A DNA stretch of 64,000 nt from Niameybacter massiliensis (GCF_001282685.1 NZ_LN875035.1:199278-263277); one strand, 5' to 3'; counted from the first letter of the stretch, positions 17,692 to 46,041 are shown. The notes: generated by a model from the letters alone, not told the origin. Numbers and translations are program-made.

Positions 17692-17715
17692 CAATAAAAC
17701 CCCTCTTCTATAGAT

Positions 17716-27296: not shown

Positions 27297-28286
27297 TTAG
27301 TTTTGATAATTAATATCTTGTGTAGATACGTATGGGAATAGTTTGAGTTCTTTGCCCTCTAGTTGTTCTTTATGCATATCTATAGCATTGATTCGACTAT
27401 TATCATGTGTTTTATAGTAGTAAATACCTTTTTCTAGATCCATACAAGAAGAATATAAAGTTGAATCTTCTAGTCCCTCTTCTGTAATAACACCACCTTT
27501 TACCATCTTTACATAGTCAAGCATATGGAAAAATTGAGTTAGTGCTTGCATATCATTCTCTATTGTTGGCATTTGAGATCTAATATAAGCAATTCTTACA
27601 AATCTTGAAACAGAAGCAAAGTCTCCTGGTATACCTAATGTACCTGCTCCAATACCTAAAGGTCTTAGTTCTTGGTTACTCCACATTGTTGCCTTAGGTT
27701 GATTTGGAGTAAGATGCATATATTCATTGAGGTTAGTTAAATGCCAGTCAAATGTTGGGTTATTGGTCATAACACCAACAGGATTATCATGAACTGTAAT
27801 TTTTTCTTTAGTTTTTTCAACTACTATAGACTTACCAGTTTTATCCGCAATCATCCAATGTAGCATCGCAACAGGTGTTTTATCATTAATCGGTACATTT
27901 ACAAATTCTATATTTTTAATTGCTTCTTTTACTTCATCCACTGTTTCATAGTTAGATAATACCCATTGGATAAAGTCATAAGGTGCAAGATTTATTTTAT
28001 CTGGCACTCGCTTTTCTTCAAAATAAGCATACCCTGCAAAATTTAAGCCTGCACAAGCTAATCCCGCTTCATTCATCGCATCCGCTATTGCAGGATGATT
28101 ATCGATAACGGTTCCCATACCAATAATAGCACGTTTATTGATAACCATATTACCCGTTACCTTATCTTGATATTGATAATTTCTTGGAATAATAATTCCT
28201 GATTGATTAAAAGTATAGGCTAAATCCATATTTCTTCCAAAAAAACATTTGTTTTCATTTGATTTTATACTTAATGCTGTACACAT
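27297..28286 (-). CDS. Linear-amide C-N hydrolase (choloylglycine hydrolase / penicillin V acylase family)
   Basis: This 329-residue N-terminal nucleophile hydrolase begins MCTAL, and removal of Met exposes the catalytic Cys2. Conserved family pieces are GRNMDLAY (about 17-24), the loop around NEAGLACAGLNFAGYA (about 69-84) and VGVMTNNPTFDWHLTNLNEY (about 171-190, with the conserved Asn and Trp). The family includes bile-salt hydrolases, penicillin V acylases and AHL or other amide hydrolases. The sequence alone does not say which. There is no signal peptide, so it is cytoplasmic. It is a single-gene unit convergent with the beta-mannosidase. Confidence 0.9.
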   Translation of the reverse strand: MCTALSIKSNENKCFFGRNMDLAYTFNQSGIIIPRNYQYQDKVTGNMVINKRAIIGMGTVIDNHPAIADAMNEAGLACAGLNFAGYAYFEEKRVPDKINLAPYDFIQWVLSNYETVDEVKEAIKNIEFVNVPINDKTPVAMLHWMIADKTGKSIVVEKTKEKITVHDNPVGVMTNNPTFDWHLTNLNEYMHLTPNQPKATMWSNQELRPLGIGAGTLGIPGDFASVSRFVRIAYIRSQMPTIENDMQALTQFFHMLDYVKMVKGGVITEEGLEDSTLYSSCMDLEKGIYYYKTHDNSRINAIDMHKEQLEGKELKLFPYVSTQDINYQN

Positions 28287-29548: not shown

Positions 29549-29604
29549 GTTTTTTTACTACTAAGATCTTCATTCTCTTAAATAAAATAATTCTAAACTT
29601 TTAT

Positions 29605-30314
29605 TTAATTACTTTTTCGTAATTTATAACGTAGCCATACACTTCCATCCTACATTGCTCGTGTATTCTCAAGTTCAAAACTTATAGGTACACTATTACT
29701 TAATCCTTCTCTTTCTAAGAACAAGAACCATCTGCTGTTGCTGATATTACTATACTTACTTCGTCGCATAGCCCAATCTGTAAAAAGAACCAATTCAGCA
29801 CGCCCCCACCACCCAACATAAGTGTTTCAATCCCAAATAGATTATTAAGTTTCTCAAGTACCATTTCAAAATCCAACGTTTCTTCGCCTGCAATAATATA
29901 AGAAATGTCCAATCTACGTAAAATGCCTTATAGGCATTACTTGCTTTTTCCGTAAGTACTTCAATAATATCTACTGTCGTATTGATATAAGTAAGTTTAT
30001 TGCTTTCCCATCCAAGCTTGCCTGATGGATCAATAGAAATATAGTACATAGACGAAGTTGATCTAATAATATAATTTTCACTTAGAACACTAGGAGCCTG
30101 TTCATCTAAATCAGGCTCACGTAAAATGTAAAATTATCATCGGTTGTAATATGTCCTGATAGCTATCTTAGATGCTGATAATAGGGGGCTTTACCAAAAG
30201 CTATTTCATAAAATGCATCACCTGCACTCTTACCTTCTGGCGTATTCATATAATACCCCAGAATTTTTCCATCTAGAGAGGTCATCATGTGACAACGATA
30301 TAAGATCTATTCAT
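29605..30314 (-). pseudogene. RibD C-terminal / dihydrofolate-reductase-family protein, multiply disrupted
   Basis: Reading through the lesions gives a near full-length protein: MNRSYI, CHMMTSLDGKI, MNTPEGKSAGDAFYEIAFG, GHITTDDNFTFY, MYYISIDPSGKLGW, ISYIIAGEETLDFEMVLEKL, FGIETLMLGGGGVLNWFF and a tail ending DGSVWLRYK. Disruptions: frameshifts near 30297, 30119, 29921 and 29718, plus in-frame TAG codons at 30163-30165 and 29650-29652. The family consists of NADPH-dependent reductases related to the RibD reductase domain. Six lesions in about 700 bases argue against sequencing error and for a true pseudogene. It lies next to the exosporium remnant in a decayed zone. Confidence 0.85.
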
Positions 30315-30716
30315 TTTGTCTCATTTCACTTATACATTTTTATCCTACCATCAAACTATACAACTTAGAGTTAACTAAAAGTGCTTTATAAGCTACACAT
30401 AGAATCTATGAATTCAGAGCAAATGGAATAAGTAACGTGTACTTAGTATCACAACTATGATTGCTAACAGTAACTACCTTTGTATTTTTATAATAAAAAT
30501 TCTAAGTACCACTATTGTGATTTAATAAGCCTCTGGTATATATGTATTGTTTAAAAGGATTCCTTTAATTCAGTACAATCTCCTTATGCACATTAAAGGA
30601 AAAAAGGTAGGATTTTATTCCTACCTTTCTACATTCATTATAAAATATGTTTGTATTATTTTTATGTTAAATCTTTTGCACAATATTACCTATTATGCGT
30701 GATACATTCCTATTTT
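30315..30716. other. Non-coding gap with a terminator, no gene seen
   Basis: About 400 AT-rich bases upstream of the decayed reductase gene and after the glycosyltransferase stop. I found no open frame with a ribosome site and no recognisable protein fragment in any frame I read. The only structured element is the terminator at 30603-30628. Confidence 0.5.
30603..30628 (-). terminator. Intrinsic terminator of the glycan-synthesis operon
   Basis: AAAGGTAGG (30603-30611) pairs with CCTACCTTT (30620-30628). On the minus strand it is followed by TTTTCC and then T-rich sequence, about 90 bases after the glycosyltransferase stop codon. Confidence 0.75.
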
Positions 30717-32129
30717 CTATGATCTCTCAACTACTTTATTTTGGGCAGTTCTTTGAATCGTTCCCCATGTCTTTTTACTTTTCTTATAACCAATGAAAGC
30801 CATAACTCGAGTAAAAGATATAAGATATCGGAAAAATACATTTTCTAAGACACACATAATAAGTGCTTTAAACATATCACCCCAAGTAAGTTTCAAGCTT
30901 TGTACATAGGCGCATTGAGAAAAAGCCGTAAGTGTTAGGAGTATATTATAAAGAGTATAAAGAATAAAAAATTGTACCATAGCCTTCATATTTAATAAAC
31001 CAATAGAACATCCTAATACTATAATCAGTATCCCTGCTACCTCTATAATAGGTGATAATAGTTCATAAAATAAATAATACATATATGAAATAGCACTTAT
31101 CATCCCATATCTAGAATTTGCAAATACTTGACGATATTTGATCATACACTGGAGTAATCCTAGATGCCATCTGCGTCTTTGTGTGATTAAATCTCGCAAC
31201 CTTGTTGGGGCTTGACTCCAACAAACTGCATTCGGCTCATATTTTATAGTATAAGGGATATTATTGTTTCTACAAAATGAATGTAATTTTACAACAATCT
31301 CCATATCTTCACCTAGAGTATCTGTTGCATATCCTCCTACGGCAATAACTATATCTTTTTTAAAAAGGCCAAATGAACCGGAAATAATAAGATTACCATT
31401 AAAGTGATCTAATAAAATCCGAGACGCAAAAAAGGAACGCATATATTCCATTACTTGAACACCAATAATAGGCCTCCATGATAAGTGGTCTTTTGTCACT
31501 TCCCCCCTTACTATTTGTACACATTGGGCAATTCGCACTAATCCTCCTACGGCTACAATTTTATCATTTTCCAATAAGGGTTTCACAATATTTTCTAGAG
31601 AATCTTTTTGCAGCATAGAGTCTGCATCCATACATAAAAAATAGGGACTTTCTGCTGCATTAATGCCCATGTTTAAAGCATCACCTTTACCACCATTTTT
31701 CTTTTTAATTAGGGTAAGCTTAACTTTTCCTTTCTTAAATTCATAAATAGCTTCGTGAGTTTGACAAGGTATTTTTTTTCGAATAGGCCTATTCACCTCT
31801 TCCATTCGAAAATGATCTATCAATACTTGAGCTGTACCATCTTTTGAACCATCATCAATTACTATAATTTCATATAATTGATAATCCAAATGCATCAATG
31901 ATAGCACTGTATCAACAATAGTGACTTCTTCGTTATAAGCTGGAATTAAAATCGAAACTGGAAAATAAAATTTATGCCTAAGTTCATTTTGAACCTTCTT
32001 CATTCGATTGCGTTGATAAAGGCGATAGCCTCCACTTATTACACCAATCCATAAAAAAGTGGCATAAAAAATAAGATATATAATATAAAATATAGAAACA
32101 TAATCAAAAAACTTCTCTATTCCTATCAT
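30717..32129 (-). CDS. Processive family 2 glycosyltransferase (membrane)
   Basis: This 470-residue protein has an N-terminal membrane segment (about 10-33) and a GT-A domain with SILIPAYNEE (59-68) and VIDDGSKDG (D92-D93). It continues with MDADS (D168, D170), GED (273-275) and QRRRW (317-321). C-terminal membrane segments span about 345-450. The D,D,D,QxxRW set marks a processive enzyme that makes and exports a beta-linked polymer, as in cellulose, hyaluronan or poly-GlcNAc synthases. It is the last gene of a seven-gene operon and overlaps the HEAT-repeat gene by 4 bases (ATGA). The polymer made is unknown. Confidence 0.9.
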   Translation of the reverse strand: MIGIEKFFDYVSIFYIIYLIFYATFLWIGVISGGYRLYQRNRMKKVQNELRHKFYFPVSILIPAYNEEVTIVDTVLSLMHLDYQLYEIIVIDDGSKDGTAQVLIDHFRMEEVNRPIRKKIPCQTHEAIYEFKKGKVKLTLIKKKNGGKGDALNMGINAAESPYFLCMDADSMLQKDSLENIVKPLLENDKIVAVGGLVRIAQCVQIVRGEVTKDHLSWRPIIGVQVMEYMRSFFASRILLDHFNGNLIISGSFGLFKKDIVIAVGGYATDTLGEDMEIVVKLHSFCRNNNIPYTIKYEPNAVCWSQAPTRLRDLITQRRRWHLGLLQCMIKYRQVFANSRYGMISAISYMYYLFYELLSPIIEVAGILIIVLGCSIGLLNMKAMVQFFILYTLYNILLTLTAFSQCAYVQSLKLTWGDMFKALIMCVLENVFFRYLISFTRVMAFIGYKKSKKTWGTIQRTAQNKVVERS

Positions 32130-33250
32130 GACACTTGCCTTATCCTCTCTCTATCATTCAAAGCCATTGTTCTAAGCATATAACTTAGCATTTCACTTGC
32201 ATAATGATCAGCACCCTTTAGAATTTCATCAATTTCTTCACCAGTGATGCCTAAATGAATTAGCGCTATGGCTGCATTATGCCTTATGTACCAATCACTA
32301 TGATGTAATGCCTTCTTAAGTACTTTCATGGTAGTGGCTCCCGGATAATTTTCTAATGCCGAAGTAGCCACAATACCTAATATTACATTTCTCTCATCAC
32401 TTTCTTCTATATACTGACACAATTGCTTACCAGCAGGTTCATAATAATGCTTTTTGTAGTAACGTATAAGTGCTAGCCGAATCTCTATTTGTACATTTGA
32501 ATCATTCATCATCTCCCAAAAAAGTTCTGTAAAGTCTTCATCACACTTGGTGATAAATTGAATAATTGCAATAACCATCTCATCATCCCATTCCTTACAA
32601 GACTTCCATAATACTTGTGCAAGAAATTTCTGATTACCTGAAAAGGTTATAAGTCCATCTGCTAAAAGTTTAGAATGATGAAAATAGTGATGATCATTCA
32701 AAATCCTTAAAGCATTTTCTACTGCCTGTATATTACCTATACGATACAATGCTTGCAATACATTTTCTCTACAATAAACTGTTGTCTCAATTAGATAAGA
32801 AACTAAAATATCCATCATTCTATGATGTTCTTTCATATGACATGGCCAAAAGAGAGAAATCACATAAGCTAGATATGCTTTTTCCATATCCTCTTTTTTA
32901 CTATATTCCATCCCTAAAAATACAAAAATCGAAGTTATTTCTATAATGTAGTCATCTAATATATCTATCTGTTCGTCTTGCTGTTTTTGAAGTGCATGCT
33001 GAAAAGCTATAAGATGATTCAAATGAATAAGCTTCTTACATAGAAATTTTTTATGTTTTTCTGAACATTTATTTCCTTTTGCTAATCCTCTACATTGCTC
33101 CTTGATTGCTTCTTCCCAAAAGATTGTTCTCTTACTGGTTAATTGATTTACTTTCCTTTCTTGTACCTTATAAAATATACTATATGCTACTAGTGTTAAA
33201 CAAATGGTTCCATATATATATACGAGGACTTCAATACCTATACTCATCAT
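32126..33250 (-). CDS. Membrane-anchored HEAT-repeat protein
   Basis: This 374-residue protein has one N-terminal membrane helix (about 6-25) followed by a cytoplasmic all-helical solenoid. The clearest HEAT repeat, MKVLKKALHHSDWYIRHNAA, is at about 305-330. It carries no catalytic motif, so it is probably a scaffold or adaptor. It is translationally coupled to the glycosyltransferase (4-base overlap) and lies 2 bases after the TIM-barrel gene. I infer it assembles or regulates the synthase, taking a role that PilZ or other accessory subunits play in known synthase systems. Confidence 0.75.
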   Translation of the reverse strand: MMSIGIEVLVYIYGTICLTLVAYSIFYKVQERKVNQLTSKRTIFWEEAIKEQCRGLAKGNKCSEKHKKFLCKKLIHLNHLIAFQHALQKQQDEQIDILDDYIIEITSIFVFLGMEYSKKEDMEKAYLAYVISLFWPCHMKEHHRMMDILVSYLIETTVYCRENVLQALYRIGNIQAVENALRILNDHHYFHHSKLLADGLITFSGNQKFLAQVLWKSCKEWDDEMVIAIIQFITKCDEDFTELFWEMMNDSNVQIEIRLALIRYYKKHYYEPAGKQLCQYIEESDERNVILGIVATSALENYPGATTMKVLKKALHHSDWYIRHNAAIALIHLGITGEEIDEILKGADHYASEMLSYMLRTMALNDRERIRQVS

Positions 33251-33252
33251 TA

Positions 33253-35397
33253 TTACTTACTCCCTCCCCATGCTTGTTGCACAATATAGTAGGATTGCTT
33301 TAATCGCTCATGATATGCTACATCTTGTCCCCATCCTTTGAGTGATAAGGCTTCCATAGGAATAGGCTCATGCTTATTTCTATTAGCTTTTGCAATACCT
33401 ATATATAGTTCATCAATTGATGTATGCTCTACACCATAGTTACGATAATAATCTGCATGAATTTGCATATGTGAAGGGTCAGAAAAGTTTAAAAGTTGCC
33501 AGGGAATACGTATTTCAATTAAATCCTCTCCATAATAAAAGTCTGCTAAGGAATTAAATGTCTCACTCTCTGGATTTCCATTACCATAATGAAGCTTACC
33601 TGTTTCCAATACGTCAGTTAAACGCTTAGATTGTATCTCCTTAATTGTTTCATCTAGTCCTATTAAATCTTTGTCATTACTCATCATGTGAATGGGTACA
33701 AATAATGGTGTAGATGCTTCTGGTACTTCTACATAAGCATCTACTCCTGTTGTTTCGATTGAATAATTTGCGCGTATAGATTCGTATCGTTTTTGAACTA
33801 ATACTTGACTATTATCTGGTCCATCTAGTACAAGAAGAAAATCTGCATTTTTTTCAAATTGTAAAAGATATTGCTCACAATCTGAACTACCTGTTTGCTT
33901 TGTAGTATCGATAGGAATATAAAGGGGTTGTTTACTATTAACTTGCTCTCCCTGTATTAAAAGATAGATCCCACGTTCATCATATTTTGCAGATAGTTGC
34001 ATTCCGTCATGCTCTATAATTACATCTTCTTCTGTCCACTCTGAGTTCTTACCATCAATATAGCATATTGATTGAATTTCGCCTGGATCAAAACTTAATA
34101 GACCATTACCTTGGTTATAAGATTGTATATCATTCCAATAATGTCTATTATTTAGTGTTACAGCATATGATGTATTCCAGGTTGATTGCCCCCATATATC
34201 TTGCCAAGCAGATATTACAACGCCGGCTGATCCTGCTTTTATAAAGTCTTCATACCCCTTTACTAGGGCTTTACCTTGTTCAAACTCCGATAATGGACCA
34301 CTTTTTACAGCACCTCTAGATGAAGAAAATCCATATCCCACTATAACAGGTATTGTATGATATGCATTAAGTAATCTAACATATCCATCATAAGTCTCCC
34401 CTTGTAGCTCCTCTACCTGTTGAGTATCTAATAATCTTTCTTTTTGTTCTTCTGAAAAATAGTCATAAAAATTTTCACAAAAATCATATACACGATAAGA
34501 AGCAAAATAGCCAGACTTAAATGCCTTTTTCACTTTAAGGTTTTCTGCATCTAGCTGAGTATGTTTACCAAGCTGTTTTGCATAATGTTTATCATACTCA
34601 AATGGATCTATCACTGGGCTATTCATAAAAGATATGAGACGTTGTACATGATACTTTTCACTTTCATAATCTATCATTTGATCCATGATTTTAGCAAGCA
34701 TTGCTTCAAATGCTGTTGCATCACTTGTTGTTTGTATGTATTCACCATCATATATTGCGTCATACCCATTATGATTTGTATAAGCCACTGTATCTGCATT
34801 CCAATCTGTTGCCAAAATATATCCAAGTACCCATTCTGATACATCTTTGTTGTAATGACCAGTTCCTATTCCTTTATTAATTAGAATTTTTTTCTTTCCA
34901 TGAATAACATCTACCGCTCCCATTCCTGCCTCTTTTAAAGCTTGGTAAAAGCCTTCACTATATGCATCTTCTTTATTGTTATTGGCATAATCTGTAATAG
35001 AAATTCCTTGTAATACATATAAAGGTGACTCATTTTGAGTATTATAGTTATAAAGTGCATGATAAAAATTCTCATCCATAATATTGGGAATACTAATCGT
35101 ATTTGCACCCATTTCTTGTATCCATCTAAACCATCTTAAATAAGTTGTTTCATTTATTGCATAATCTGTAATATAGTGACCTGGAATACTGTTTGTAAGC
35201 TCAACCCCTTTAATAGTTAATGCTTCATAATTACCTTCTTGATTCTGGTATTCAATCATTTGCCCATTAGTACGTACCTGAATAGTTAAAGGCTTATCCT
35301 CTCCCCCCTTCATGTATATACCTTTATAATAGATACCATAATCTAGCCCTAAAATAATACTTAGAATTACAAAAACGCTAATAAAAAACTTTTTCAT
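33253..35397 (-). CDS. Large membrane-anchored TIM-barrel (glycosidase-like) protein
   Basis: This 714-residue protein has an N-terminal hydrophobic anchor (about 4-25) and an extracellular body. Residues about 60-420 look like the GH2/GH-A TIM-barrel fold: IKGVELTNSIPGHYITDYAI and LRWFRWIQEMGANTISIPNI resemble the early strands, and VGYGFSSSRGAVKSG and GSAGVVISAWQDIW the late strands. Residues 450-700 look like a beta-sandwich, perhaps a carbohydrate-binding module. The protein may process or bind the nascent glycan, like BcsZ or PelA in other synthase systems (inference). I cannot assign a catalytic pair with confidence. It lies 28 bases after cotH. Confidence 0.6.
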   Translation of the reverse strand: MKKFFISVFVILSIILGLDYGIYYKGIYMKGGEDKPLTIQVRTNGQMIEYQNQEGNYEALTIKGVELTNSIPGHYITDYAINETTYLRWFRWIQEMGANTISIPNIMDENFYHALYNYNTQNESPLYVLQGISITDYANNNKEDAYSEGFYQALKEAGMGAVDVIHGKKKILINKGIGTGHYNKDVSEWVLGYILATDWNADTVAYTNHNGYDAIYDGEYIQTTSDATAFEAMLAKIMDQMIDYESEKYHVQRLISFMNSPVIDPFEYDKHYAKQLGKHTQLDAENLKVKKAFKSGYFASYRVYDFCENFYDYFSEEQKERLLDTQQVEELQGETYDGYVRLLNAYHTIPVIVGYGFSSSRGAVKSGPLSEFEQGKALVKGYEDFIKAGSAGVVISAWQDIWGQSTWNTSYAVTLNNRHYWNDIQSYNQGNGLLSFDPGEIQSICYIDGKNSEWTEEDVIIEHDGMQLSAKYDERGIYLLIQGEQVNSKQPLYIPIDTTKQTGSSDCEQYLLQFEKNADFLLVLDGPDNSQVLVQKRYESIRANYSIETTGVDAYVEVPEASTPLFVPIHMMSNDKDLIGLDETIKEIQSKRLTDVLETGKLHYGNGNPESETFNSLADFYYGEDLIEIRIPWQLLNFSDPSHMQIHADYYRNYGVEHTSIDELYIGIAKANRNKHEPIPMEALSLKGWGQDVAYHERLKQSYYIVQQAWGGSK

Positions 35398-35425
35398 AAT
35401 AACCTCCTTCCATCATCTCATCCTA

Positions 35426-36907
35426 TTATTGATTATAAAAATGAGAATTCTTTGATGGATGAGCATATTGATATAAGGTATCTATATGTTCATCTAGCCA
35501 ACGACCTCTCTGGATAATATAGTCTTTTAACTGTTCAACCGCCTCTTCGTAGCTGGGATAATTCCTTTCTATCGGTGAAAGGAAGTTAAGTCCATCGGCG
35601 TTATCTAAATCAAAAACATATCCCCATACCTGATAATTACGCTCTATGGCATCATCTAAATAAGCAATTGTTTCATCAATATAGTTTAATAAATAGGTTT
35701 CACTTAGCACACCCTGACGTAGCCTATGATACTCATCAATTATCTTATCCACAAAGACCTGATCCTTAATTAACATAGAAAACCAAGGAGCATTTAACAT
35801 AGTAAATCCTGCTTCATCCCAAGTATAATCAATATAATTATCACAGGCGTTATTAAAGTCCCATACACAGGGTTTAAGCTTTCCTCTTATATCTTTGTAA
35901 TAGAAAGTTGAAAATCGCCCAGCATCTACATTTCCAAAAAATTCATTAATAATGAAGTATTGCGCAAAAGCTCTGACATCAATATATTCAGAATAATTAT
36001 AGTCACTTTCATATAAATCATAAGAATAAATCACTTTTTCTATTTTACTTATATCTTTCTCTATATACGCCATACGTCCGGGTGTAATTAGTTTTTTTCC
36101 AGGATAGCGTACATCTAGTCCCGATACATCTGACTTAAAAGTATATGTAGTTAAATTATTAAGCTCATGATCACCTTTTCCTGCACGATCCCAACGTACA
36201 ATATAGCTTGTCCTATCTCTATTTTTCTCTGGTTTACTAATATTAATTCGAGCTGTTGATCGGCTCACACTTTCTATAATTAAGTAAAGACCTTGATATT
36301 CACCATCTAAAAAGAGCTCACAAAATCTAACATTAGGTGCATACTCCATAATTTCACCTGCAATATTAAGACACATATAATTTCTAATTAGTGTACGGTC
36401 TAAAAAGGGACCATTAAGAACCCATTCATCATCTTTAGGTAAACCTGCTAATTCTTGTGGGTTTTCATTTCCATTTTCATCAATAAAATGCATCATCATC
36501 GGTTTTTTATCAAAAAATCTTGAAGAATTTCCTCTATATCTAATATTTGCTTTTGTTACAACTTGTCTTATATCATCTAAACTGTTTTGTCCATCTTGAC
36601 TATCTATTAGTGAAAAGTCTACTATTACTTCTTCCTCTCCTTGAGGTCCTGTTTGAAATCCAGTAATCTCTTCCTCATGAAAAATAGGAGAGCCTGGTAT
36701 TAACTGACCCTTTGTATTAATTTCTACAATCGGTAGATGTGTTGTAAACAATCCCTCATTCTCTTGTGCCTTGGATAGTGGAGATACTCTATGTTGATGT
36801 ACTCTACTCATGCCAGATTCAAAATCGAGAAATTGCAACCCAATACTCAAGATAAGTATAAAACATAACACTCCTATATAAATGATTTTATTTTTCAATT
36901 GAATCAC
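35426..36907 (-). CDS. cotH: CotH-family protein kinase-like protein
   Basis: This 493-residue protein starts with a signal-anchor (about 10-26) and continues with a CotH domain: RYRGNSSR near 125, the nucleotide-loop-like KKPMMMHF, EYQGLYLIIESV near 210 and the catalytic-type CVWDFNNACDN near 345. CotH proteins are secreted or spore-coat protein kinases in Bacillus. In Clostridia they also occur next to VTC and DUF4956 genes, as here. The start codon is GTG, overlapping the DUF4956 stop by 4 bases. An extracytoplasmic phosphorylation role in assembling the glycan or coat is inferred. Confidence 0.85.
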   Translation of the reverse strand: MIQLKNKIIYIGVLCFILILSIGLQFLDFESGMSRVHQHRVSPLSKAQENEGLFTTHLPIVEINTKGQLIPGSPIFHEEEITGFQTGPQGEEEVIVDFSLIDSQDGQNSLDDIRQVVTKANIRYRGNSSRFFDKKPMMMHFIDENGNENPQELAGLPKDDEWVLNGPFLDRTLIRNYMCLNIAGEIMEYAPNVRFCELFLDGEYQGLYLIIESVSRSTARINISKPEKNRDRTSYIVRWDRAGKGDHELNNLTTYTFKSDVSGLDVRYPGKKLITPGRMAYIEKDISKIEKVIYSYDLYESDYNYSEYIDVRAFAQYFIINEFFGNVDAGRFSTFYYKDIRGKLKPCVWDFNNACDNYIDYTWDEAGFTMLNAPWFSMLIKDQVFVDKIIDEYHRLRQGVLSETYLLNYIDETIAYLDDAIERNYQVWGYVFDLDNADGLNFLSPIERNYPSYEEAVEQLKDYIIQRGRWLDEHIDTLYQYAHPSKNSHFYNQ

Positions 36908-37581
36908 CCACTAATTTCATCACTTTGGGTTACAATATTTACATACTCGATATCCCCTAAACCATATAATTTTTCTGCAATACTTGTTTCTTGTTGATAA
37001 GATAAATGATATACTTTTTTAGACATTTCAAATATGAGTTCGATATGAGATGGTGTAGTATTTTTTACTCTTTGTACAGCCTTACCTTTAAAATAACTAA
37101 AAATAATTGATTCAATCTCTCTTTCCTTTATAAATGAACCACGCACTATGAGTAAAATACGATTTTCATTTCTTACACGTCCTAAGCAAAGAAGTACTAC
37201 AAAAGTTACAGCTGTACCTATTCCTGCTACTACAAAATCACCTACTCCACAACAAATCCCTACAGTAATTGCCCAAAATATATAAGTTGTATCTCTAGAA
37301 TCTTTAATAGCTGTACGAAAACGTACAATAGATAGAGCTCCAACCATTCCTAAAGATAGAGCCACATTATTCCCAATAACAGTCATTACTGTTGCTGTTA
37401 ATATTGTTAGTGTTACAAGTGAGACATTAAACTTTTGACTATATGTAGTACCTGAATGGGTATACCAATATGATATATAAATTGCACTACTTATAAGTGC
37501 TGCCGCTACAATATACATTATAATTTCTTCTAAGCCCAGCGTTCCGCTTTGTTCCAATACATTTTGTAAATATTCTTTCAT
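36904..37581 (-). CDS. DUF4956 membrane protein
   Basis: This 225-residue protein has four hydrophobic segments between residues about 18 and 135 and a cytoplasmic C-terminal domain of about 90 residues. The central motif ALSIVRFRTAIKDSRDTTYIF (about 79-100) is the hallmark of DUF4956, which almost always accompanies VTC-domain and CotH genes. Its function is unknown; a channel or exporter partner for the VTC product is a common guess. It has a strong AAGGAG site and is translationally coupled to cotH. Confidence 0.88.
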   Translation of the reverse strand: MKEYLQNVLEQSGTLGLEEIIMYIVAAALISSAIYISYWYTHSGTTYSQKFNVSLVTLTILTATVMTVIGNNVALSLGMVGALSIVRFRTAIKDSRDTTYIFWAITVGICCGVGDFVVAGIGTAVTFVVLLCLGRVRNENRILLIVRGSFIKEREIESIIFSYFKGKAVQRVKNTTPSHIELIFEMSKKVYHLSYQQETSIAEKLYGLGDIEYVNIVTQSDEISG

Positions 37582-37631
37582 AACTTCTCCTTTTTGGGTA
37601 TGATCACCATATTATGTTCTATCGCATCTCT

Positions 37632-38327
37632 TTAAAATAAATAGTGCTTGCTCACTGAGCGTCCTAAGCAGTATTTACTGACTGAAATCTCACTTGCATT
37701 ACATTCTTGTAAAATATCCTTCAAATAGCTTAAAAGGAAACCATTATACTTTACTTCTAGAACAACCAAATCACTATTAAAAATAGTATTTTGAAGTAGG
37801 TCTTTAGAAAAAATATCATAATAACTTTCAGTGCCTCTAATTTGATAGTCAAATGTAATACGAATATTATTTTCCTTAGCTATATATGCCTTGCGCTTAT
37901 ACTCTACTACCGCTTTCGGGCTATAACATAATGCATTTAATAAATAATAACATTCTGCTGCAAAAGGTTCACTGTATTTTAAAAGAACACTATAATCTTT
38001 TTGTACCAGTTTTTGTGCATCTTCTTTGGGCATCTTCAAAGAGCGTTTTTTCTGCATGCTTCCTTGCTTTTGCTTCATCTCTAATACAGCAAAAGAACTT
38101 TCAGCTCCATAATTTCTAAGTCTAATCTTTCGTCTAATCTCTACGCCTTCTTCTTTCTCCGTAAAATCTTTGTCATCTAATGTATCAAAATATAAGGAAC
38201 GTATTGTATAGCCTTCACCCTTATTGTGTATGTCTTGTTGTATAATCTGATCGAAATAATGAGTATACTGATAGAATTGAGCTAACGAAATTAAAAATTT
38301 CTTTTCTTGCCTTAATACCTCATTCAA
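37632..38327 (-). CDS. VTC-domain (polyphosphate polymerase-like) protein
   Basis: This 231-residue protein is essentially one VTC domain. It carries YTIRSLYFDTLDDKDF (about 39-54), the basic RRKIRLRNYG (64-73), VLEMKQKQG (82-90), AVVEYKRKAY (135-144), RITFDY and VLEVKYNGF (193-201). These alternating Arg/Lys and Glu strands line the tunnel in VTC4 and bind polyphosphate and triphosphate. The initiation codon is TTG at 38327, 9 bases after AAGGAGG and overlapping the lipoprotein gene by 8 bases. Whether it makes polyphosphate or acts on another phosphate polymer in bacteria is unproven. Confidence 0.85.
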   Translation of the reverse strand: MNEVLRQEKKFLISLAQFYQYTHYFDQIIQQDIHNKGEGYTIRSLYFDTLDDKDFTEKEEGVEIRRKIRLRNYGAESSFAVLEMKQKQGSMQKKRSLKMPKEDAQKLVQKDYSVLLKYSEPFAAECYYLLNALCYSPKAVVEYKRKAYIAKENNIRITFDYQIRGTESYYDIFSKDLLQNTIFNSDLVVLEVKYNGFLLSYLKDILQECNASEISVSKYCLGRSVSKHYLF

Positions 38328-39183
38328 TATTTACAACCTCCTTTAGTGCCTCATAGTCATGTAATGCAAAACTAAATAATTTATAATTAAAAAAGCCCTT
38401 CAAGCTCTCCCAACTCTTTAGGATAGGCTGTAACCCTTCGTGGTAGTAAGTACTCTTTTCTGTCAAACCGTGTGTTCCCGGAGCTTTTAATTCATAGATT
38501 TGGATAATCTTCTTACTATATTGATGTGCCAACTCCATTTCTTTTACAATATGCTCTTGTTCTTTTTCCTTATAGTAGTTCATGACAGCTATTGTATCAC
38601 ATCCATTTTGCACCAATGTTTCAAGCTGCTTCTCATAACCTAGACTATCGTAAAAATAAGGAATACAGATAAGCCCCTCTAAATGATTTTCTGTTATTAT
38701 TTTGTAGGCCTTTTCCATTATCTTTACATACTGATTCATAACACCTTCTTGATCCTTATCCCATTCATCTGTTAGATAAGGCTCTACATCTAAAATAATA
38801 CCTTTAAACCCTATTCTTTCTGGAAAACTTTCATTAAGAGTTATAATATGCTCAATATATGTCATCATCTTTCCACTAGATTTTTCAATCCCCCATTCAG
38901 GTGCACCTGCTAGATAATAAACATTAATCTTATACATATTAGCTAATTTTAAAAAATCTACTATAACTTCTTGAGGTGTATCTTCTGGAAATTCTTGATA
39001 TAAAGAATGCACTCCCATTTCTTTCATCATTTCAAACAATTTTTCTTTTTCTTCAAAAGCTCTTGAAAAGGACCATGAGAATAGTCCTATTTCTTCCTTC
39101 TTCATCGCACATCCTATCTGGGTTAAGACTAATGCCATTATCATAATACGTAAAATTATTGACTTTCTACACTTTCTTATCAT
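38320..39183 (-). CDS. TIM-barrel lipoprotein of unknown function
   Basis: A 287-residue protein starting at the ATG at 39183, with GGAGGAGAGG just upstream; the longer frame to 39264 runs back towards the promoter. It has a signal peptide with a lipobox-like TQIGC (Cys 25). The body has strand motifs of a small TIM barrel (IGLFSWSF, INVYYLAGAPEWG, GFKGIILDVEPYL, LICIPYFYDS, TIAVMNYY, KIIQIYELK). The acidic LDVEPYL resembles GH18-like or DUF4434-type barrels. It is the first gene of the envelope-glycan operon and could be a surface glycosidase or glycan-binding protein. The specificity is unknown. Confidence 0.65.
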   Translation of the reverse strand: MIRKCRKSIILRIMIMALVLTQIGCAMKKEEIGLFSWSFSRAFEEKEKLFEMMKEMGVHSLYQEFPEDTPQEVIVDFLKLANMYKINVYYLAGAPEWGIEKSSGKMMTYIEHIITLNESFPERIGFKGIILDVEPYLTDEWDKDQEGVMNQYVKIMEKAYKIITENHLEGLICIPYFYDSLGYEKQLETLVQNGCDTIAVMNYYKEKEQEHIVKEMELAHQYSKKIIQIYELKAPGTHGLTEKSTYYHEGLQPILKSWESLKGFFNYKLFSFALHDYEALKEVVNIE

Positions 39184-39246
39184 CCTCTCCTCCTTTCTTA
39201 TTTCTACATTTTTTGTATATTTAGACACTGCATCTTTAACAATTTT

Positions 39247-39275
39247 ATTATATATAACTTTCATATTTAAGTAAA
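39247..39275 (-). promoter_or_regulatory. Predicted sigma-A promoter of the seven-gene glycan operon
   Basis: On the minus strand TTTACT (39275-39270), 17 bases, then TATAAT (39252-39247), placing the start near 39240, about 57 bases before the lipoprotein ATG. If correct the operon is read in vegetative cells rather than only by a sporulation sigma factor. Confidence 0.55.
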
Positions 39276-39388
39276 TATTTCATCAATACAACAACAAATT
39301 ACATAAAATACCAAGATAATGCAACTTATTGGGATATCTCACTTTTAGTATGATATAATATATATTTTTATTTAATACTTTTTACTAA

Positions 39389-39426
39389 TAAATCCCCTAA
39401 AGAATAATGTTTCTTTAGGGGATTTA
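39389..39426 (-). terminator. Intrinsic terminator after the second response-regulator gene
   Basis: A perfect 16-bp stem, TAAATCCCCTAAAGAA (39389-39404) with TTCTTTAGGGGATTTA (39411-39426), has a 6-base loop. Confidence 0.8.
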
Positions 39427-39439
39427 TAGTCGTTTATGC

Positions 39440-40177
39440 TTATTCTTTCATATATAACGAATAGGCCTTACCTGTATACTTTTTAAAACACTTCCCAAAA
39501 TAGTTAGAATCAGGTATACCTACTTCTTTTGCTGCGCAATACATCATTACTTCACGCCTGGCTAATTGCTTAGCCTTCTCCATTCTACATTCCGTTAAGA
39601 AATCAATAAAACTATCGCCAACTTCTGCTTTAAATATTCTACTTAAATAGCTTGGATTAAATCCAAAATGCATGGCAGTTGAGGTTAGATTCAAATCTGG
39701 ATCCATATAATGTGCTAATATGTATTGTTTGATTTGATGAATGACTTCATGGCCTATACATTCATCTTTTACGTCTTCGTCCATCATTTTTTCTTCAACC
39801 TCATGATCTAGTTCACTCTTGATTTTCTCTAATACGGTTTGTATATCCGTTTGGGCAACGGGTTTTAGAAGATAGTCCTTAACACCAATTCGAATACACT
39901 CTCTTGCATATTCAAATTCATCAAAGGCTGTTAATATAATAATCTTTAGCTTGGGATAACGTTCAATTGCTAACTTCGCAAATTCAATGCCATTCATAAA
40001 AGGCATTCTAATATCTACAAAAACAATATGAGGTTTTAGATCATCAATAATATTAATAGCCTCTACACCACTTGCTGCTTCTCCTACCACCTCAACATCT
40101 AAGTTCGTCCAGCTAATTTTAATTTTGAGTAAGTTTCTAATGGATGTTTCATCATCTATAATCATGATTTTATACAT
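39440..40177 (-). CDS. Short YesN-type response regulator with AraC output domain
   Basis: At 245 residues this is about half the usual YesN length because the middle linker domain is missing. The receiver domain (1-120) has MIIDDETS, phospho-acceptor Asp near 55 in IVFVDIRMPFMNG, T in ILTAFDE and K in DYLLKPV. The AraC double HTH follows at about 145-245 (FGFNPSYLSRIFKAEVG and VGIPDSNYFGKCFKKYTG). It is encoded 11 bases after its kinase. It likely activates the ABC/GH3 operon upstream, whose promoter carries a tandem repeat. Confidence 0.9.
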   Translation of the reverse strand: MYKIMIIDDETSIRNLLKIKISWTNLDVEVVGEAASGVEAINIIDDLKPHIVFVDIRMPFMNGIEFAKLAIERYPKLKIIILTAFDEFEYARECIRIGVKDYLLKPVAQTDIQTVLEKIKSELDHEVEEKMMDEDVKDECIGHEVIHQIKQYILAHYMDPDLNLTSTAMHFGFNPSYLSRIFKAEVGDSFIDFLTECRMEKAKQLARREVMMYCAAKEVGIPDSNYFGKCFKKYTGKAYSLYMKE

Positions 40178-40188
40178 GAACCTTCCCC

Positions 40189-41895
40189 CTAGATAACTGG
40201 TATGATAATTTCTATTTCTGTAAAAACACCTACTTGACTTCTAACCTTAAAGACATCTTCTTTACTGTAATAATAACGAATTCTTTCAATAGTACCTTTG
40301 AGACCAAAGCTTTTATGCTCTTTAGAATTCATAATGGTATGTAGCTGCTCCACATCTATGCCTATTCCACTATCATAAACTTTGATATGAATCTGACCTT
40401 CTAACTTCTCAACTGTAATTTTAATAAGTCCTTTCTCCCCTTTAGGTCTTAATCCATGATACAGACTATTTTCCACCAAGGGCTGTAGAATTAACTTAGG
40501 TATTTTAAAGTCTAATAGATCGTCTTGAATATTATATTCATCTTCAAAAACCTCTTCATAACGTAACTTTTGAAGACTTAAGTAGTCTTTAATAATTTCA
40601 ATTTCACCTTTAATCGTTATTTCTCTACTTCCTTTGCTTAAAAACTTTCTATAAAAACTTCCTAATGTTTCTAAAGCCTGATAAACATGGATTGCATCAT
40701 TTTCAAGTGCGAGATAAGCAATGGTATCTAACGTATTGTATAGAAAATGAGGTTTAATTTGTTCTTGCAATACTTCTAGTTCTGCTTTTTGGATAAACTT
40801 CTCTTTGTTAATAAGTTGAGTGATCAAGTCATTCATTTCCTTAATCATTCCATTATAGCTTTCTTTTAAATCCCCTATTTCATCATTTGCAACTGACAAA
40901 GATACTTTTTGAACCTTTCCTTGTTTAAAGCTTTTCATCGTTGCAACCAATTTTTCTATAGGATTGGTAATAAATATAGATATAAAAACACCTATCATAC
41001 TCATTGCTATTAACGTAAGTATTAAAATACTCCCAATAATCCAACCTGCTTCTTTAGAAATCATCTTACTAATTCCTATCTTTTCAACTGCAATAAGTGT
41101 AATAGGCATATTCTCTATTGGGTATAACCCTGTAACACTTTCATTTACTATAAATCCTTCTTTGTATTGAACATAGTGCTTCTGCTCTAGTGCTAAATCT
41201 CCAATTTGTTCTATACTTAAGTTGCCACAAAAAAGCTTATTACCATAAGCATAGCCAAAGCTTTTATTCCCGCCTATCATATCTTTATATGTACTTGTAA
41301 AAATGCTTTTAGACACATTAATAATGAGCATCCCTTTAGGTTGTTGTGTTTCAATATCATTCATTAAACGAATAAAGGAAATTACCTGCTCTTTTCCACT
41401 AAATGCCCCATCTCCGTCTAGGCGTATTCTATAACCACCTGCAGCTTGAACAATTTCATCATACCATTGGTGTTCTTGTATTCTTGCCGAATCTAACTTA
41501 ACCGTATTACGACTTACGTTAATATAGCCCCCTTCTTTATTAAAGACATAAATAGAATTAATATGGTTAAAAGTATTCATTAAATCAAACAAAGCGCTTT
41601 TAGCTTCTTGTGCATGACGCACGCCTTCTTTATAGCCATTATCTAAGTATTTATTAATGATACTATCTGTAAGAATTAACTTGCTGACATTATTAATCGT
41701 CACAAATTCTGTCTCCAGATTATTCCCAACAGCAGTTATGGTATTCAAATTATTTTCGAAGGCATATTGTACCATATTGCGTTTTAAAACGAAGGCATAG
41801 GCAATAAAAAATATAATCATATAACTCATAATAATAAAAAGAAATAAGTACTTGATTTTTTGCTTAAGTTTTAAGTCTAAAAAGCGTTTGAACAA
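40189..41895 (-). CDS. YesM-type sensor histidine kinase (Cache-like sensor, HAMP)
   Basis: This 568-residue kinase has TM1 at about 15-35, an extracellular Cache-like sensor (about 36-270), TM2 at about 283-305 and a HAMP domain (about 306-360). The His_kinase part has QIKPHFLYNTLDTIAY and HATPase boxes LVENSLYHGLRP and DSGIGI. The start codon is TTG at 41895, with AAAGGAGG 7 bases upstream. It forms an operon with the short YesN regulator. The pair lies downstream of the GH3/ABC operon behind a terminator, so it has its own promoter, not clearly recognised. Confidence 0.9.
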   Translation of the reverse strand: MFKRFLDLKLKQKIKYLFLFIIMSYMIIFFIAYAFVLKRNMVQYAFENNLNTITAVGNNLETEFVTINNVSKLILTDSIINKYLDNGYKEGVRHAQEAKSALFDLMNTFNHINSIYVFNKEGGYINVSRNTVKLDSARIQEHQWYDEIVQAAGGYRIRLDGDGAFSGKEQVISFIRLMNDIETQQPKGMLIINVSKSIFTSTYKDMIGGNKSFGYAYGNKLFCGNLSIEQIGDLALEQKHYVQYKEGFIVNESVTGLYPIENMPITLIAVEKIGISKMISKEAGWIIGSILILTLIAMSMIGVFISIFITNPIEKLVATMKSFKQGKVQKVSLSVANDEIGDLKESYNGMIKEMNDLITQLINKEKFIQKAELEVLQEQIKPHFLYNTLDTIAYLALENDAIHVYQALETLGSFYRKFLSKGSREITIKGEIEIIKDYLSLQKLRYEEVFEDEYNIQDDLLDFKIPKLILQPLVENSLYHGLRPKGEKGLIKITVEKLEGQIHIKVYDSGIGIDVEQLHTIMNSKEHKSFGLKGTIERIRYYYSKEDVFKVRSQVGVFTEIEIIIPVI

Positions 41896-42065
41896 CCTTT
41901 TGCCTCCTTTTATGGCCCTTACCCTTTATGATTGCATCATAAGTATATTTTAACATAATTTAACTTTAAATTTTATATTTTTTATAATATTTATACATAT
42001 ATATTCTATACAAATGTATCAATATCTCTAATAACCCATTCCATTTCATCAATTAAGCTTATAAA

Positions 42066-42107
42066 AAGAGGCTAGGAAAATGTTCTATCCATTTTATCTA
42101 GCCTCTT
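42066..42107 (-). terminator. Intrinsic terminator of the GH3/ABC operon
   Basis: AAGAGGCTAG (42066-42075) pairs with CTAGCCTCTT (42098-42107), extended inward by AAAATG/CATTTT. It starts a few bases after the GH3 stop codon. Confidence 0.8.
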
Positions 42108-42112
42108 AGGGT

Positions 42113-44224
42113 TTATTTAAATATTACATTTACTTGTACGGGTTTCATCTTTGTAAGTTCTTCACTTCTAGTATCCGGTTGACTTGTTCCAACAAAAAGG
42201 CTAAAAGTAGATGAATCATAGCGTCTTTCACCTTTTGCATCAACTATTGTAAAAGCATTCCATGGAATGGTTAACTTTACTTCTTCCTTTGCTTTTCCTT
42301 TAAGCGCTACACGTTTAAATGCACATAGGCTTGTATTAAGCACAGCATATTGAGAGGTCTCATTTTTTACATAGACTTGTAAAACCTCTTCTGTATCATA
42401 TAAGCTATCATTAAAAAGTTTAACGAGAAGTTCTACATCGTGTCCAACCTCTAATGGACTCATAATTTGGGCCTCTTCACAGAACACTTTACCATAGGAT
42501 AGGCCATAGCCAAATGGATATAAAGGTTGGTCTTTCATATAACGATAAGTTCTACCTTCCATAGCATAGTCTGTAAATGCAGGAAGCTGGTCGGATGATT
42601 GATAAAATGTAACAGGAAGTTTACCTGATGGAGAAGTTTTGCCAAACAAAATATCTGCAACAGCTTTACCACCTCTTGCACCTGGATACCACACCTGCAA
42701 AATGCCCTTGCAATGGGCCTCGGCATAGCTTAAGTTCATTGCACTTCCTGTCATCATACATAAAATCACAGGTTTGCCTATTGCAACAACTCTTTCAAGA
42801 AGCTTCTTTTGAACTTGTGGAAGTTCTAAATCCTTTTTATCGCCTGAACCCACTTCATTACCTTGGTCAAACTCCTCACCCTCCAGTGTCTCATCTAATC
42901 CAAGACATAAAATGACTACATCACTATGCTCTGCCACACTTAATGCTTCACAGATTCTGTCATATTCCATGGCTAAACCTTCTGTTTGCCTTTTTATGAG
43001 CTCACAACCTTTGGCAAATAAAACTCGTACTTCATCACCTACTTCATCTTGAATCCCCTCTAATAGGGTAATATATCTAGAGGACGTGCCGTAGTAATTC
43101 CCTTTTAACGCTAGACGACTATTGGCATTAGGTCCTATTACACCAATGGTTTTAAGCTGCTTTTTATTAAGGGGAAGGATGTTCTCATTCTTAAGAAGTA
43201 CCACACTTTTTCTAGCAGCTTCTACTGCTAGATCAATATGTTCTTGGCATTCTACCTTGTCAAATGAAATCGTATCATATTCACAGTCTTCAAATAAACC
43301 CAGCTTAAATCGTGTTGTAAAAAGTCTCTCAGCTGCTTTTGTAATCTGTTCTTCTGGAATAAGCCCATTTTGATTTGCCATCATCACGTGCAAATAAGTA
43401 TTCCCGCAATTTAGATCACAGCCAGCATCCATTGCTAAAGCTGCCGATTCTTCTGGTGTAGATGTGACATGATGGTGCATATGGAAATCTTTTATGGCCC
43501 AGCAATCTGATACAAAATGCCCATTAAACTGCCACTGCTCCCTTAAAATATCTTGAATGAGGAAATAACTCCCACAGCAAGGTTCTCCATTGGTTCTATT
43601 ATAAGCACCCATGACACTTTCTACTTGCCCTTCCTTGACACAAGCTTCAAATGCTGGCAAATAGGTTTCCCATAAATCTTTTGGACTTACCTGTGCATCA
43701 AACTCATGTCTTAAATCCTCTGGACCACTATGAACAGCAAAATGTTTTGCACAAGCTGCCACTTTCATATGCTCTCCATGACCTTGAAGCCCTTTAATAA
43801 AAGCTACCCCTAGCCGACTTGTAAGGTATGGATCTTCTCCATAGGTTTCATGGCCCCGCCCCCATCTTGGATCTCTAAAAATATTAATATTAGGTGACCA
43901 AAAAGTCAGCCCCTTATAAATATCACGATCACCATGACGTGCACTTTCGTTATATTTTGCCCGTCCCTCTTCGGCAATAGCACTTGCTACTTGCTCTAAA
44001 AATTGTTCATCAAACATTGCTGCAAGCCCTATGGCTTGTGGAAAGCTCGTTGCTGTTCCTGCTCTAGCTACTCCATGTAATGCTTCATTCCACCAGTTAT
44101 AAGCTGGTATATTAAGCCTTGGTATTGCTGGAGCATTATACGTAAGCTGGCTTGCCTTTTCTTCTAAAGTCATTTGTGAAACTAACTGAACCGCCTTTTC
44201 CTTGCATACTACATCATTAAACAT
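42113..44224 (-). CDS. Glycoside hydrolase family 3 beta-xylosidase-like enzyme
   Basis: This 703-residue cytoplasmic enzyme has an N-terminal GH3 barrel with YNWWNEALHGVARAG (about 42-56), which is typical of the plant-type beta-xylosidase/arabinofuranosidase branch. It also has KHFAVHSGPE and the nucleophile Asp240 in VSDCWA. The C-terminal sandwich domain (about 345-560) and a fibronectin III-like domain (about 590-700) complete the fold. It probably removes xylose or arabinose from oligosaccharides imported by the ABC system encoded immediately upstream (12-base gap). Glucosidase activity cannot be excluded. Confidence 0.88.
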   Translation of the reverse strand: MFNDVVCKEKAVQLVSQMTLEEKASQLTYNAPAIPRLNIPAYNWWNEALHGVARAGTATSFPQAIGLAAMFDEQFLEQVASAIAEEGRAKYNESARHGDRDIYKGLTFWSPNINIFRDPRWGRGHETYGEDPYLTSRLGVAFIKGLQGHGEHMKVAACAKHFAVHSGPEDLRHEFDAQVSPKDLWETYLPAFEACVKEGQVESVMGAYNRTNGEPCCGSYFLIQDILREQWQFNGHFVSDCWAIKDFHMHHHVTSTPEESAALAMDAGCDLNCGNTYLHVMMANQNGLIPEEQITKAAERLFTTRFKLGLFEDCEYDTISFDKVECQEHIDLAVEAARKSVVLLKNENILPLNKKQLKTIGVIGPNANSRLALKGNYYGTSSRYITLLEGIQDEVGDEVRVLFAKGCELIKRQTEGLAMEYDRICEALSVAEHSDVVILCLGLDETLEGEEFDQGNEVGSGDKKDLELPQVQKKLLERVVAIGKPVILCMMTGSAMNLSYAEAHCKGILQVWYPGARGGKAVADILFGKTSPSGKLPVTFYQSSDQLPAFTDYAMEGRTYRYMKDQPLYPFGYGLSYGKVFCEEAQIMSPLEVGHDVELLVKLFNDSLYDTEEVLQVYVKNETSQYAVLNTSLCAFKRVALKGKAKEEVKLTIPWNAFTIVDAKGERRYDSSTFSLFVGTSQPDTRSEELTKMKPVQVNVIFK

Positions 44225-44235
44225 ATGTAATCCCC

Positions 44236-45063
44236 CTATCCTTTGACTGCGCCTACAAGTAAGCTTTCTTGAATTTTTTTATTCATAAAACAATAAACAA
44301 TTAATGTTGGGAAAGTTGCAATGACAAGTGCTGCACCTATTGGCCCCCAATCTGTTGTATAGGCACCACATAAGGTCTGTATCCCAACTGACAATGTTCT
44401 ATATTTAGAACTACTAATAAAAATAACAGCAAACATAAGCTCGTTCCAAGCTTGCAAGAAAACAAAAATACCAATAGTTGAAAGTGCTGGCTTCATAAGT
44501 GGTAAAATAATTCTAAAAAAGATACCATATACACTACATCCATCTATACAAGCTGATTCTTCTAACTCTCTGGGAATGCTCTGCATAAAACTTCCACTAA
44601 TCAAGATTGCCATAGACAAAGCAAACGCGGAATACGGCAAAATCAATGCTTGATAAGAATCTAGCATTTTCAAATTACGTAAAATAATAAATACAGGAAG
44701 TATGGCCGCATGGATAGAAACAGTAAGTCCTAACATAAAAATGATGTTCATTACTTTTTGGCCTCTCCAAATCATTCTTGTTAATGCATAAGTTGCCATT
44801 AAGGCTAACATTGTTGTAAGTAAAATAGTTCCACCTGTTACAATCACACTATTAAAAAAATAACGTCCCATGTTACCTGTTGTTAATGCTTCGCTATAGT
44901 TAGACCAAAGCCAGTTTCTAGGTAATCCTATTATATTTTGCCCAAAGATTTCTGAGTTATCTTTTAGTGAGAAAGTAAACATCCAGTAGAGAGGAAAAAG
45001 TTGAATCGCAGCCCATATTATAAGAATAACAAAAACTATTTTTTTTCCTAGACTTGACTTCAT
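44236..45063 (-). CDS. Carbohydrate ABC transporter permease, MalG type
   Basis: This 275-residue permease has six membrane segments. It carries the N-terminal segment FPLYWMFTFSLKDNSEIFG and the EAA loop EESACIDGCSVYGIFFRIILP (about 168-188), and ends ESLLVGAVKG as CUT1 MalG-like subunits do. It begins directly after the stop codon of the first permease gene and precedes the GH3 gene by 11 bases. It forms the channel with the protein at 45064-45945. Confidence 0.92.
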   Translation of the reverse strand: MKSSLGKKIVFVILIIWAAIQLFPLYWMFTFSLKDNSEIFGQNIIGLPRNWLWSNYSEALTTGNMGRYFFNSVIVTGGTILLTTMLALMATYALTRMIWRGQKVMNIIFMLGLTVSIHAAILPVFIILRNLKMLDSYQALILPYSAFALSMAILISGSFMQSIPRELEESACIDGCSVYGIFFRIILPLMKPALSTIGIFVFLQAWNELMFAVIFISSSKYRTLSVGIQTLCGAYTTDWGPIGAALVIATFPTLIVYCFMNKKIQESLLVGAVKG

Positions 45064-45945
45064 TTATTCCACCTCCACCTTAAACATTTTCTTTATCAAA
45101 ATAGAAAAGAAGAAACATAAGAAGATAATACAAATAGCAATGGCGCTCCCTACCCCATAACGATTACGACCAAAGATCATAGATACCATCAAGGTACTTG
45201 GTACCTCGCTGGCATGGGCTGGACCTCCATTGGTTAGAACATAAATTAAATCAAAAGCCTTTAATGAACCTGTTACCGCAAAGATAACGCACACTTGGAT
45301 GATTGGCTTAATAAGTGGAATAATAATATATTTACATGTTTGCCAGTAAGATGCACCATCTATAACAGCTGCTTCTCTTACATCATTTGAAATAGACTTA
45401 ATACCAGCATAGAGTAAAAGCATGTGATATCCTACGTATTGCCACAATATTGGTACAAAAACAGCCAGTAATGCTGTCTTTGGATCGCCTAACCATACAC
45501 GCGTCAGGTGGTTTAATCCTAAGGCATTTAACCCACTATTAATAATGCCGTAGTCAGGGTTATAAATTTTTGCCCACAACTGTCCAATAACAACTGTTGA
45601 AATTAATACAGGAATGAAGAAAACCGTTACAAAAAACCTTTCTCCTTTAATCCCTCTTGCAAGTGCAAGGGCTAAAAACAATGAAATAGGTAACTGAATA
45701 AAAACAGATAACACTGCCAAAATACATACATTTGAAAGGGCTTTAGGAAAGGCAATAGACTTGCTTGTAAAAAGGGTTATATAGTTTTCTAAGCCTAAAA
45801 AAGTTCCTGTTGTAATACCATCCCATTTTAATAAACTATAGTATGCTGACATAAAAATAGGAATAATAATAATCATAAAAAAAAGTATTGCTGCTGGTGC
45901 TATGAATATAAAAATGGCTAACTTATTACGCATCACTTTATCCAT
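45064..45945 (-). CDS. Carbohydrate ABC transporter permease, MalF type
   Basis: This 293-residue permease has six membrane segments and the EAA loop REAAVIDGASYWQTCKYIIIP (about 188-208). Typical MalF/UgpA features such as YYSLLKWDG and a short N-terminus are present. It follows the binding lipoprotein gene after a hairpin-containing gap of about 95 bases and has an AGGGGG ribosome site. It works with the MalG-type subunit and a shared ATPase not encoded here. Confidence 0.92.
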   Translation of the reverse strand: MDKVMRNKLAIFIFIAPAAILFFMIIIIPIFMSAYYSLLKWDGITTGTFLGLENYITLFTSKSIAFPKALSNVCILAVLSVFIQLPISLFLALALARGIKGERFFVTVFFIPVLISTVVIGQLWAKIYNPDYGIINSGLNALGLNHLTRVWLGDPKTALLAVFVPILWQYVGYHMLLLYAGIKSISNDVREAAVIDGASYWQTCKYIIIPLIKPIIQVCVIFAVTGSLKAFDLIYVLTNGGPAHASEVPSTLMVSMIFGRNRYGVGSAIAICIIFLCFFFSILIKKMFKVEVE

Positions 45946-45998
45946 GTACGACTTCCCCCTTTAGCTAAAATGGCTATCTCCATACTTCTCTATAGATA

Positions 45999-46032
45999 AA
46001 AAGGTACTTCTATATGGCTAGAAGTACCTTTT
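45999..46032 (-). promoter_or_regulatory. Perfect intercistronic hairpin after the binding-protein gene
   Basis: AAAAGGTACTTCTA (45999-46012) pairs with TAGAAGTACCTTTT (46019-46032), 14 bp with a 6-base loop, followed by only a short T stretch. The position matches the hairpin at 19564-19599 in the other ABC operon, suggesting partial termination or message stabilisation after the lipoprotein gene. Confidence 0.65.
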
Positions 46033-46041
46033 ATACCTTGT

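Follow-up and report, generated by a model that had tools for sequence, protein, structure and literature searches.

The window, a 64,000-nucleotide stretch of Niameybacter massiliensis DNA (NZ_LN875035.1:199278-263277), contains seven genes on the minus strand between 39183 and 30717 in the order TIMlip, VTC, DUF4956, CotH, TIM714, HEAT and GT2, as given in a preliminary description made from the sequence alone. The genes and adjoining signals are as follows.

39388-39427, plus strand as listed (the palindrome is nearly symmetrical): stem-loop of 17 pairs between the upstream response-regulator gene and the operon
39247-39275, minus strand: promoter-like site TTTACT-17-TATAAT, 10/12 consensus matches
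38320-39183, minus strand: TIMlip, membrane-anchored or lipoprotein TIM-barrel protein with a GH18/Cwp19-like fold and LDVEP and MNYY motifs
37632-38327, minus strand: VTC-domain protein, predicted polyphosphate polymerase (Pfam VTC, 2.6e-43)
36904-37581, minus strand: DUF4956 membrane protein (Pfam, 1e-14; weak MgtC match; hydrophobic segments)
35426-36907, minus strand: CotH-family kinase-like protein (Pfam CotH, 4e-64; N-terminal hydrophobic segment)
33253-35397, minus strand: TIM714, membrane-anchored clan GH-A TIM barrel with a C-terminal beta domain
32126-33250, minus strand: HEAT-repeat protein, predicted synthase partner (Pfam HEAT_2, 2e-6; one N-terminal hydrophobic segment)
30717-32129, minus strand: GT2 processive synthase (Pfam, 4.7e-29; D,D,D,QRRRW; no PilZ domain)

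Junctions from TIMlip to GT2 were -8, +50, -4, +28, +2 and -4 bases, so the coupling by overlaps of 4 to 8 bases described earlier holds for three of the six (-8, -4, -4), the other three being gaps. The most likely start of TIMlip is 39183, preceded by a GGAGG site, and the leader between this start and the promoter-like site (39275-39247) is only about 60 bases. The promoter upstream of TIMlip is graded as plausible only, because such matches were no commoner here than in shuffled sequence. The stem-loop is likely a terminator parting the upstream two-component system from the operon. TIMlip, taken earlier for a TIM-barrel lipoprotein, is a TIM barrel by model, but its lipobox (QIGC) is imperfect; better lipoboxes are present in some of its relatives. 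Upstream (39440-47361, minus strand) lies a carbohydrate uptake operon with a binding protein, two permeases, a GH3 glycosidase and a His_kinase/AraC-type response-regulator pair; downstream are the frameshifted remains of a reductase-like gene with a RibD C-terminal domain (29600-30320, minus strand), a choloylglycine hydrolase family (bile-salt-hydrolase-like) gene that suggests a gut lifestyle (27297-28286, minus strand) and a gene for a DUF5696 protein with weak GH101/GH129 (endo-alpha-N-acetylgalactosaminidase-like) matches (15838-17694, minus strand).

A Pfam scan assigned no family to TIMlip or TIM714; AlphaFold2 models (mean pLDDT 89.9 and 81.3 for the two) agreed with the barrels proposed for both. 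The TIMlip model matched Cwp19 (Z 20.4) and GH18-like folds (Z 16-18), with no GH18 Pfam match, and Foldseek alone returned mixed TIM-barrel families for it at low TM-scores. For TIM714, the nearest fold was GH157 (Z 20.0, rmsd 2.8, 307 aligned), followed by GH5/GH2. The D,D,D,QRRRW motifs noted in GT2 were placed at D93, D168/D170, D275 and 317-321, nearly all invariant in relatives, and GT2 also has membrane segments; a GT2 profile search of solved structures for the product matched only the GT-A core. The N-terminal part of CotH matched solved spore coat protein H (2e-7), with K134 and D350 invariant in the set. A VTC profile matched yeast Vtc4 chains at 3.9e-5, although a single-sequence search of solved structures gave no match, and the profile match aligned an RLR motif whose arginines are catalytic in Vtc4. 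As in the yeast VTC complex, a VTC catalytic domain stands beside a membrane part, but VTC and DUF4956 are separate proteins in the window; homology between DUF4956 and Vtc1 was not found by any test made. N-terminal hydrophobic segments in CotH and TIM714 agree with the initial reading of a glycan-synthase operon with products at or outside the membrane.

GTDB contigs were scanned with a TIM714 alignment, giving at least 566 confirmed relatives, of which the best 80 were examined; as the best matches to a clostridial query, these are not a random sample. All six core genes, VTC-DUF4956-CotH (the trio) followed by TIM714-HEAT-GT2, were complete and in order in 58 of these best 80 of at least 566, which places the set far beyond chance. 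Most exceptions were cut by contig ends, had one gene unrecognisable, or were high-GC loci with unsure gene calling. Carriers included Lachnospiraceae, Oscillospiraceae, Paenibacillus, Holdemania and Eggerthellaceae. Among 391 genomes drawn evenly from the class, 27 had TIM714 and 25 had HEAT. TIMlip was found nearby in 17 of the best 80 of at least 566, either directly before VTC or beyond a gene with an EAL domain. In relatives, the median overlap of GT2 with HEAT was 4 bases, and the two were fused in L235, from the window's own family. Genes of 166-183 codons with no clear family recurred between GT2 and the EAL gene in L065, L067, L081 and L124, with weak coiled-coil matches and, in L132, a match to DivIVA. 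A viral origin was rejected, as viral contigs contained no relatives of HEAT or DUF4956.

The same six genes by order and size are present in NELoc-2 of Clostridium perfringens, which was catalogued in 2010 without a function (PMC2879425) and whose gene list was repeated in later papers, again without one (PMC5964661; PMC11677781). The NELoc-2 products are VTC (230 amino acids), a "tubulin/FtsZ" membrane protein (222), CotH (497), an unknown protein (685), HEAT (377) and GT2 (466) (PMC2879425, Table 4), compared with 231, 225, 493, 714, 374 and 470 amino acids in the window, a likeness of sizes and order. Judged by position and size, the "tubulin/FtsZ" label is most likely a misannotated DUF4956. 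NELoc-2 differs in an extra VTC pair, a resolvase and a sigma factor, to which some strains add a deacetylase, and its descriptions mention neither a polysaccharide function nor control by c-di-GMP. The match to a published polysaccharide locus that the preliminary description had raised was therefore found only in part: the locus is published, but was not recognised there as a polysaccharide locus. The Gram-positive pel accessory set CotH-PPP-DUF4956-DUF4832 (PMC7112168; PMC12345266) likewise places VTC (PPP), DUF4956 and CotH by a synthase and a TIM-barrel glycosidase, but the synthase is PelF/PelG there and GT2-HEAT here; no DUF4832 match was found, and no PelG in the window's own genome. 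With at least 566 loci encoding TIM714, a match to NELoc-2 and the trio published beside pel, the set is not a private fusion, and the earlier word "undescribed" is not supported.

The two parts of the operon also occur apart. TIM714-HEAT-GT2 was found without the trio in L015, L016, L054, L055 and L056, and the trio without TIM714-HEAT-GT2. VTC was adjacent in 40/40 DUF4956 loci selected from 196 genomes with a positive result; among their other neighbours, Cthe_2159-type carbohydrate-binding proteins (21 of 86 scanned), genes of OmpR-type two-component systems and CotH (7) predominated. At L200 (2334-10396), the trio is joined to two acetylation genes, one for an MBOAT acyltransferase and one AlgX-like, and to a GT2 of 768 residues in which a PilZ-like RRTER motif was recognised by eye. 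VTC-DUF4956 directly follows the pel genes in five pel clusters, and in the one scanned (L210) the pair is flanked by CotH proteins. Because each part occurs without the other, and the trio also lies beside pel and a cellulose-type synthase, the two were taken to be separable modules brought together at polysaccharide loci. A tree of 71 DUF4956 rows was divided by a 100/100 branch, with the window, all GT2-HEAT, cellulose-type and Pel rows and three CotH-adjacent rows on one side and the other 37 rows opposite. A syntenic trio arrangement was said not to be found outside the Pel locus (PMC12345266); this does not hold across the genomes searched. As the trio travels with three kinds of synthase, its role appears tied to surface polymers generally and not to Pel.

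Other settings of these genes were also recorded. The window's own genome contains a second trio, which follows genes for an OmpR-type response regulator and a histidine kinase and has no synthase (L017, 7322-13108; G000:C11, ~2.425-2.431 Mb), and a third VTC-DUF4956 pair (L189; G000:C8, ~49.4 kb), which the DUF4956 tree places across the branch from the window. Across L171-L209, VTC-DUF4956 was commonly beside Cthe_2159-type secreted proteins and two-component systems, for which no published explanation was found. Zetaproteobacterial stalk genes were rejected as a match, as CotH there stands in a different architecture.

Signs of cyclic-di-GMP control were found in the relatives. Rfam placed a c-di-GMP-I riboswitch directly before VTC in 6 of 12 relatives scanned. 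A model built from those six loci and three riboswitches of the window's own genome gave 37 matches in 1.78 Mb. Of the 80 loci, 66 had enough upstream sequence to be tested, and in 25 of these 66 the aptamer ends 41-86 bases ahead of VTC; 19 of the 25 are independent of the model, since the six Rfam loci went into building it. An SBP_bac_3-GGDEF-EAL gene followed GT2 in 53 of 75 relatives. Its consensus retains the EAL-type catalytic motifs (EALsRW, DDFG, EGVE), and the GGDEF motif is degenerate or absent; single members such as L112 look degenerate too. L060 has the order aptamer, deacetylase gene, VTC, with GT2 and GGDEF-EAL fused in one frame. By this anatomy, the operon in most relatives would answer to cyclic-di-GMP through the riboswitch, the adjacent EAL protein or both. 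The riboswitch link is absent from published descriptions of the operon within the literature searched.

The polymer is most likely an N-acetylated amino sugar, partly deacetylated in some species. The best NCBIfam match of GT2 was PgaC_IcaA, the nearest curated family (PNAG), at 167.8 bits, less than half the equivalog cut-off of 422.3. Among the best 80 of at least 566 relatives, 8 encode a polysaccharide deacetylase inside the operon or just ahead of it and nowhere else in those loci, and L046 has one too, an addition to some relatives that PNAG synthesis shares. Many of the GH18-type/Cwp19 folds near TIMlip act on N-acetylhexosamines. To our knowledge, the HEAT protein is not found in known ica/pga operons. 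Caution is needed because TIM714 is closest to GH157, which leaves room for glucans. A neutral beta-glucan, whether cellulose-like, of mixed linkage or beta-1,3, with TIM714 as the matching endo-glucanase, is possible but considerably less likely. GH157 is a laminarin-active family, TIM714 also weakly resembles GH72 (E 0.006), and the trio can adjoin a PilZ cellulose-type synthase; however, the BcsA/CcsA cellulose synthases carry a C-terminal PilZ domain that a Pfam scan did not find in the window GT2, GT2 scored only 58 bits for CelA against 168 for PgaC_IcaA, deacetylases occur in 8/80 operons, and the clan GH-A list that places GH157 first also holds mannanases and glucuronidases within 2 Z units. 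The Romboutsia mixed-linkage glucan synthase was rejected as a match because it has a PilZ domain and is not described with partners of this kind.

Set against the operons of its relatives, the window copy is likely rewired or partly degraded. Relatives show signs of c-di-GMP control, but no riboswitch, PilZ or EAL gene was found in the window: Rfam returned no riboswitch at the gathering score for the whole window or at a permissive E-value for 39100-39700, and the model from relatives returned none; no EAL gene follows GT2, the 1.5 kb downstream holding the RibD remnant; and a Pfam scan of the operon found neither PilZ nor deacetylase. The window TIM714 lacks the near-invariant Glu after residue 353, the expected nucleophile that closes strand 7 and is Glu in 109 of the 114 rows aligned, and has Asp at residue 198, where 98 of 114 rows have Glu; at 98 of 114, residue 198 was not accepted as a proven acid/base. 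A same-family genome fragment (L233) keeps Glu at both positions. From these substitutions, the window TIM714 is probably a non-cleaving glycan-binding subunit, likely to bind the glycan but no longer to cut it. A reading in which the operon, its regulation lost, is decaying and yields little or no product was judged rather improbable: the riboswitch and EAL gene are gone, several near-invariant TIM714 positions are changed and gene remains lie in the downstream stretch, but none of the seven reading frames is broken, conserved positions are retained almost throughout in VTC and DUF4956 and for the most part in GT2, and the TIM714 changes cluster in the barrel, with the remainder conserved.

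The preliminary description had also suggested a spore polymer. Eggerthellaceae and Coriobacteriia are not known to form spores. A glycan of the coat or cortex, with CotH acting as in the Bacillus spore coat, is very unlikely: CotH is homologous to the spore coat kinase and many carriers are Clostridia, but the operon is complete in Eggerthellaceae/Coriobacteriia, and is tied to c-di-GMP by its leaders in relatives, and CotH homologues occur in non-sporulating streptococci (PMC7112168).

Together, we consider the operon to be quite probably a synthase-dependent exopolysaccharide machine, usually c-di-GMP-linked, with VTC-DUF4956-CotH as a phosphate-related module and the window copy a derived form. 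GT2, by its family, would polymerise and extrude a beta-linked glycan from the cytoplasm, with HEAT, adjacent and once fused, as its putative constant membrane-anchored partner. TIM714 would lie outside the cell and, by its fold, normally trim or release the chain, and TIMlip may be a second surface glycosidase. The least certain steps are those of the trio, in which VTC may make polyphosphate at the membrane beside DUF4956 and secreted CotH may transfer phosphate to the polymer, a matrix protein or another part of the machine. In Streptococcus intermedius, deletion of the DUF4956 homologue raised Pel and deletion of the CotH homologue lowered it, both reducing aggregation; for the VTC homologue, no change in aggregation was reported on deletion (PMC12345266). 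This last result weakens the VTC/CotH phosphate step, and polyphosphate-fed extracellular phosphorylation is therefore put forward as a hypothesis only. In its full form, VTC-DUF4956 would be a polyphosphate synthase-exporter feeding secreted CotH with a phosphoryl donor outside the cell, where ATP is absent, and CotH would phosphorylate the nascent polysaccharide or its matrix proteins; we regard this as doubtful. If true, VTC-DUF4956 would be a general surface-phosphorylation supply common to Pel, cellulose-type and GT2-HEAT polymers, and would also serve non-synthase surface proteins with Cthe_2159-type partners.

Within the literature searched, the operon has so far appeared only in lists of necrotic-enteritis markers, as a locus of C. 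perfringens. If recognised as a cyclic-di-GMP-linked synthase operon, NELoc-2 would gain a testable function. Hundreds of Bacillota from gut and soil, and some Actinomycetota, would then share a conserved polysaccharide operon, with Paenibacillus agaridevorans, Blautia parvula and Eisenbergiella porci as tractable carriers.
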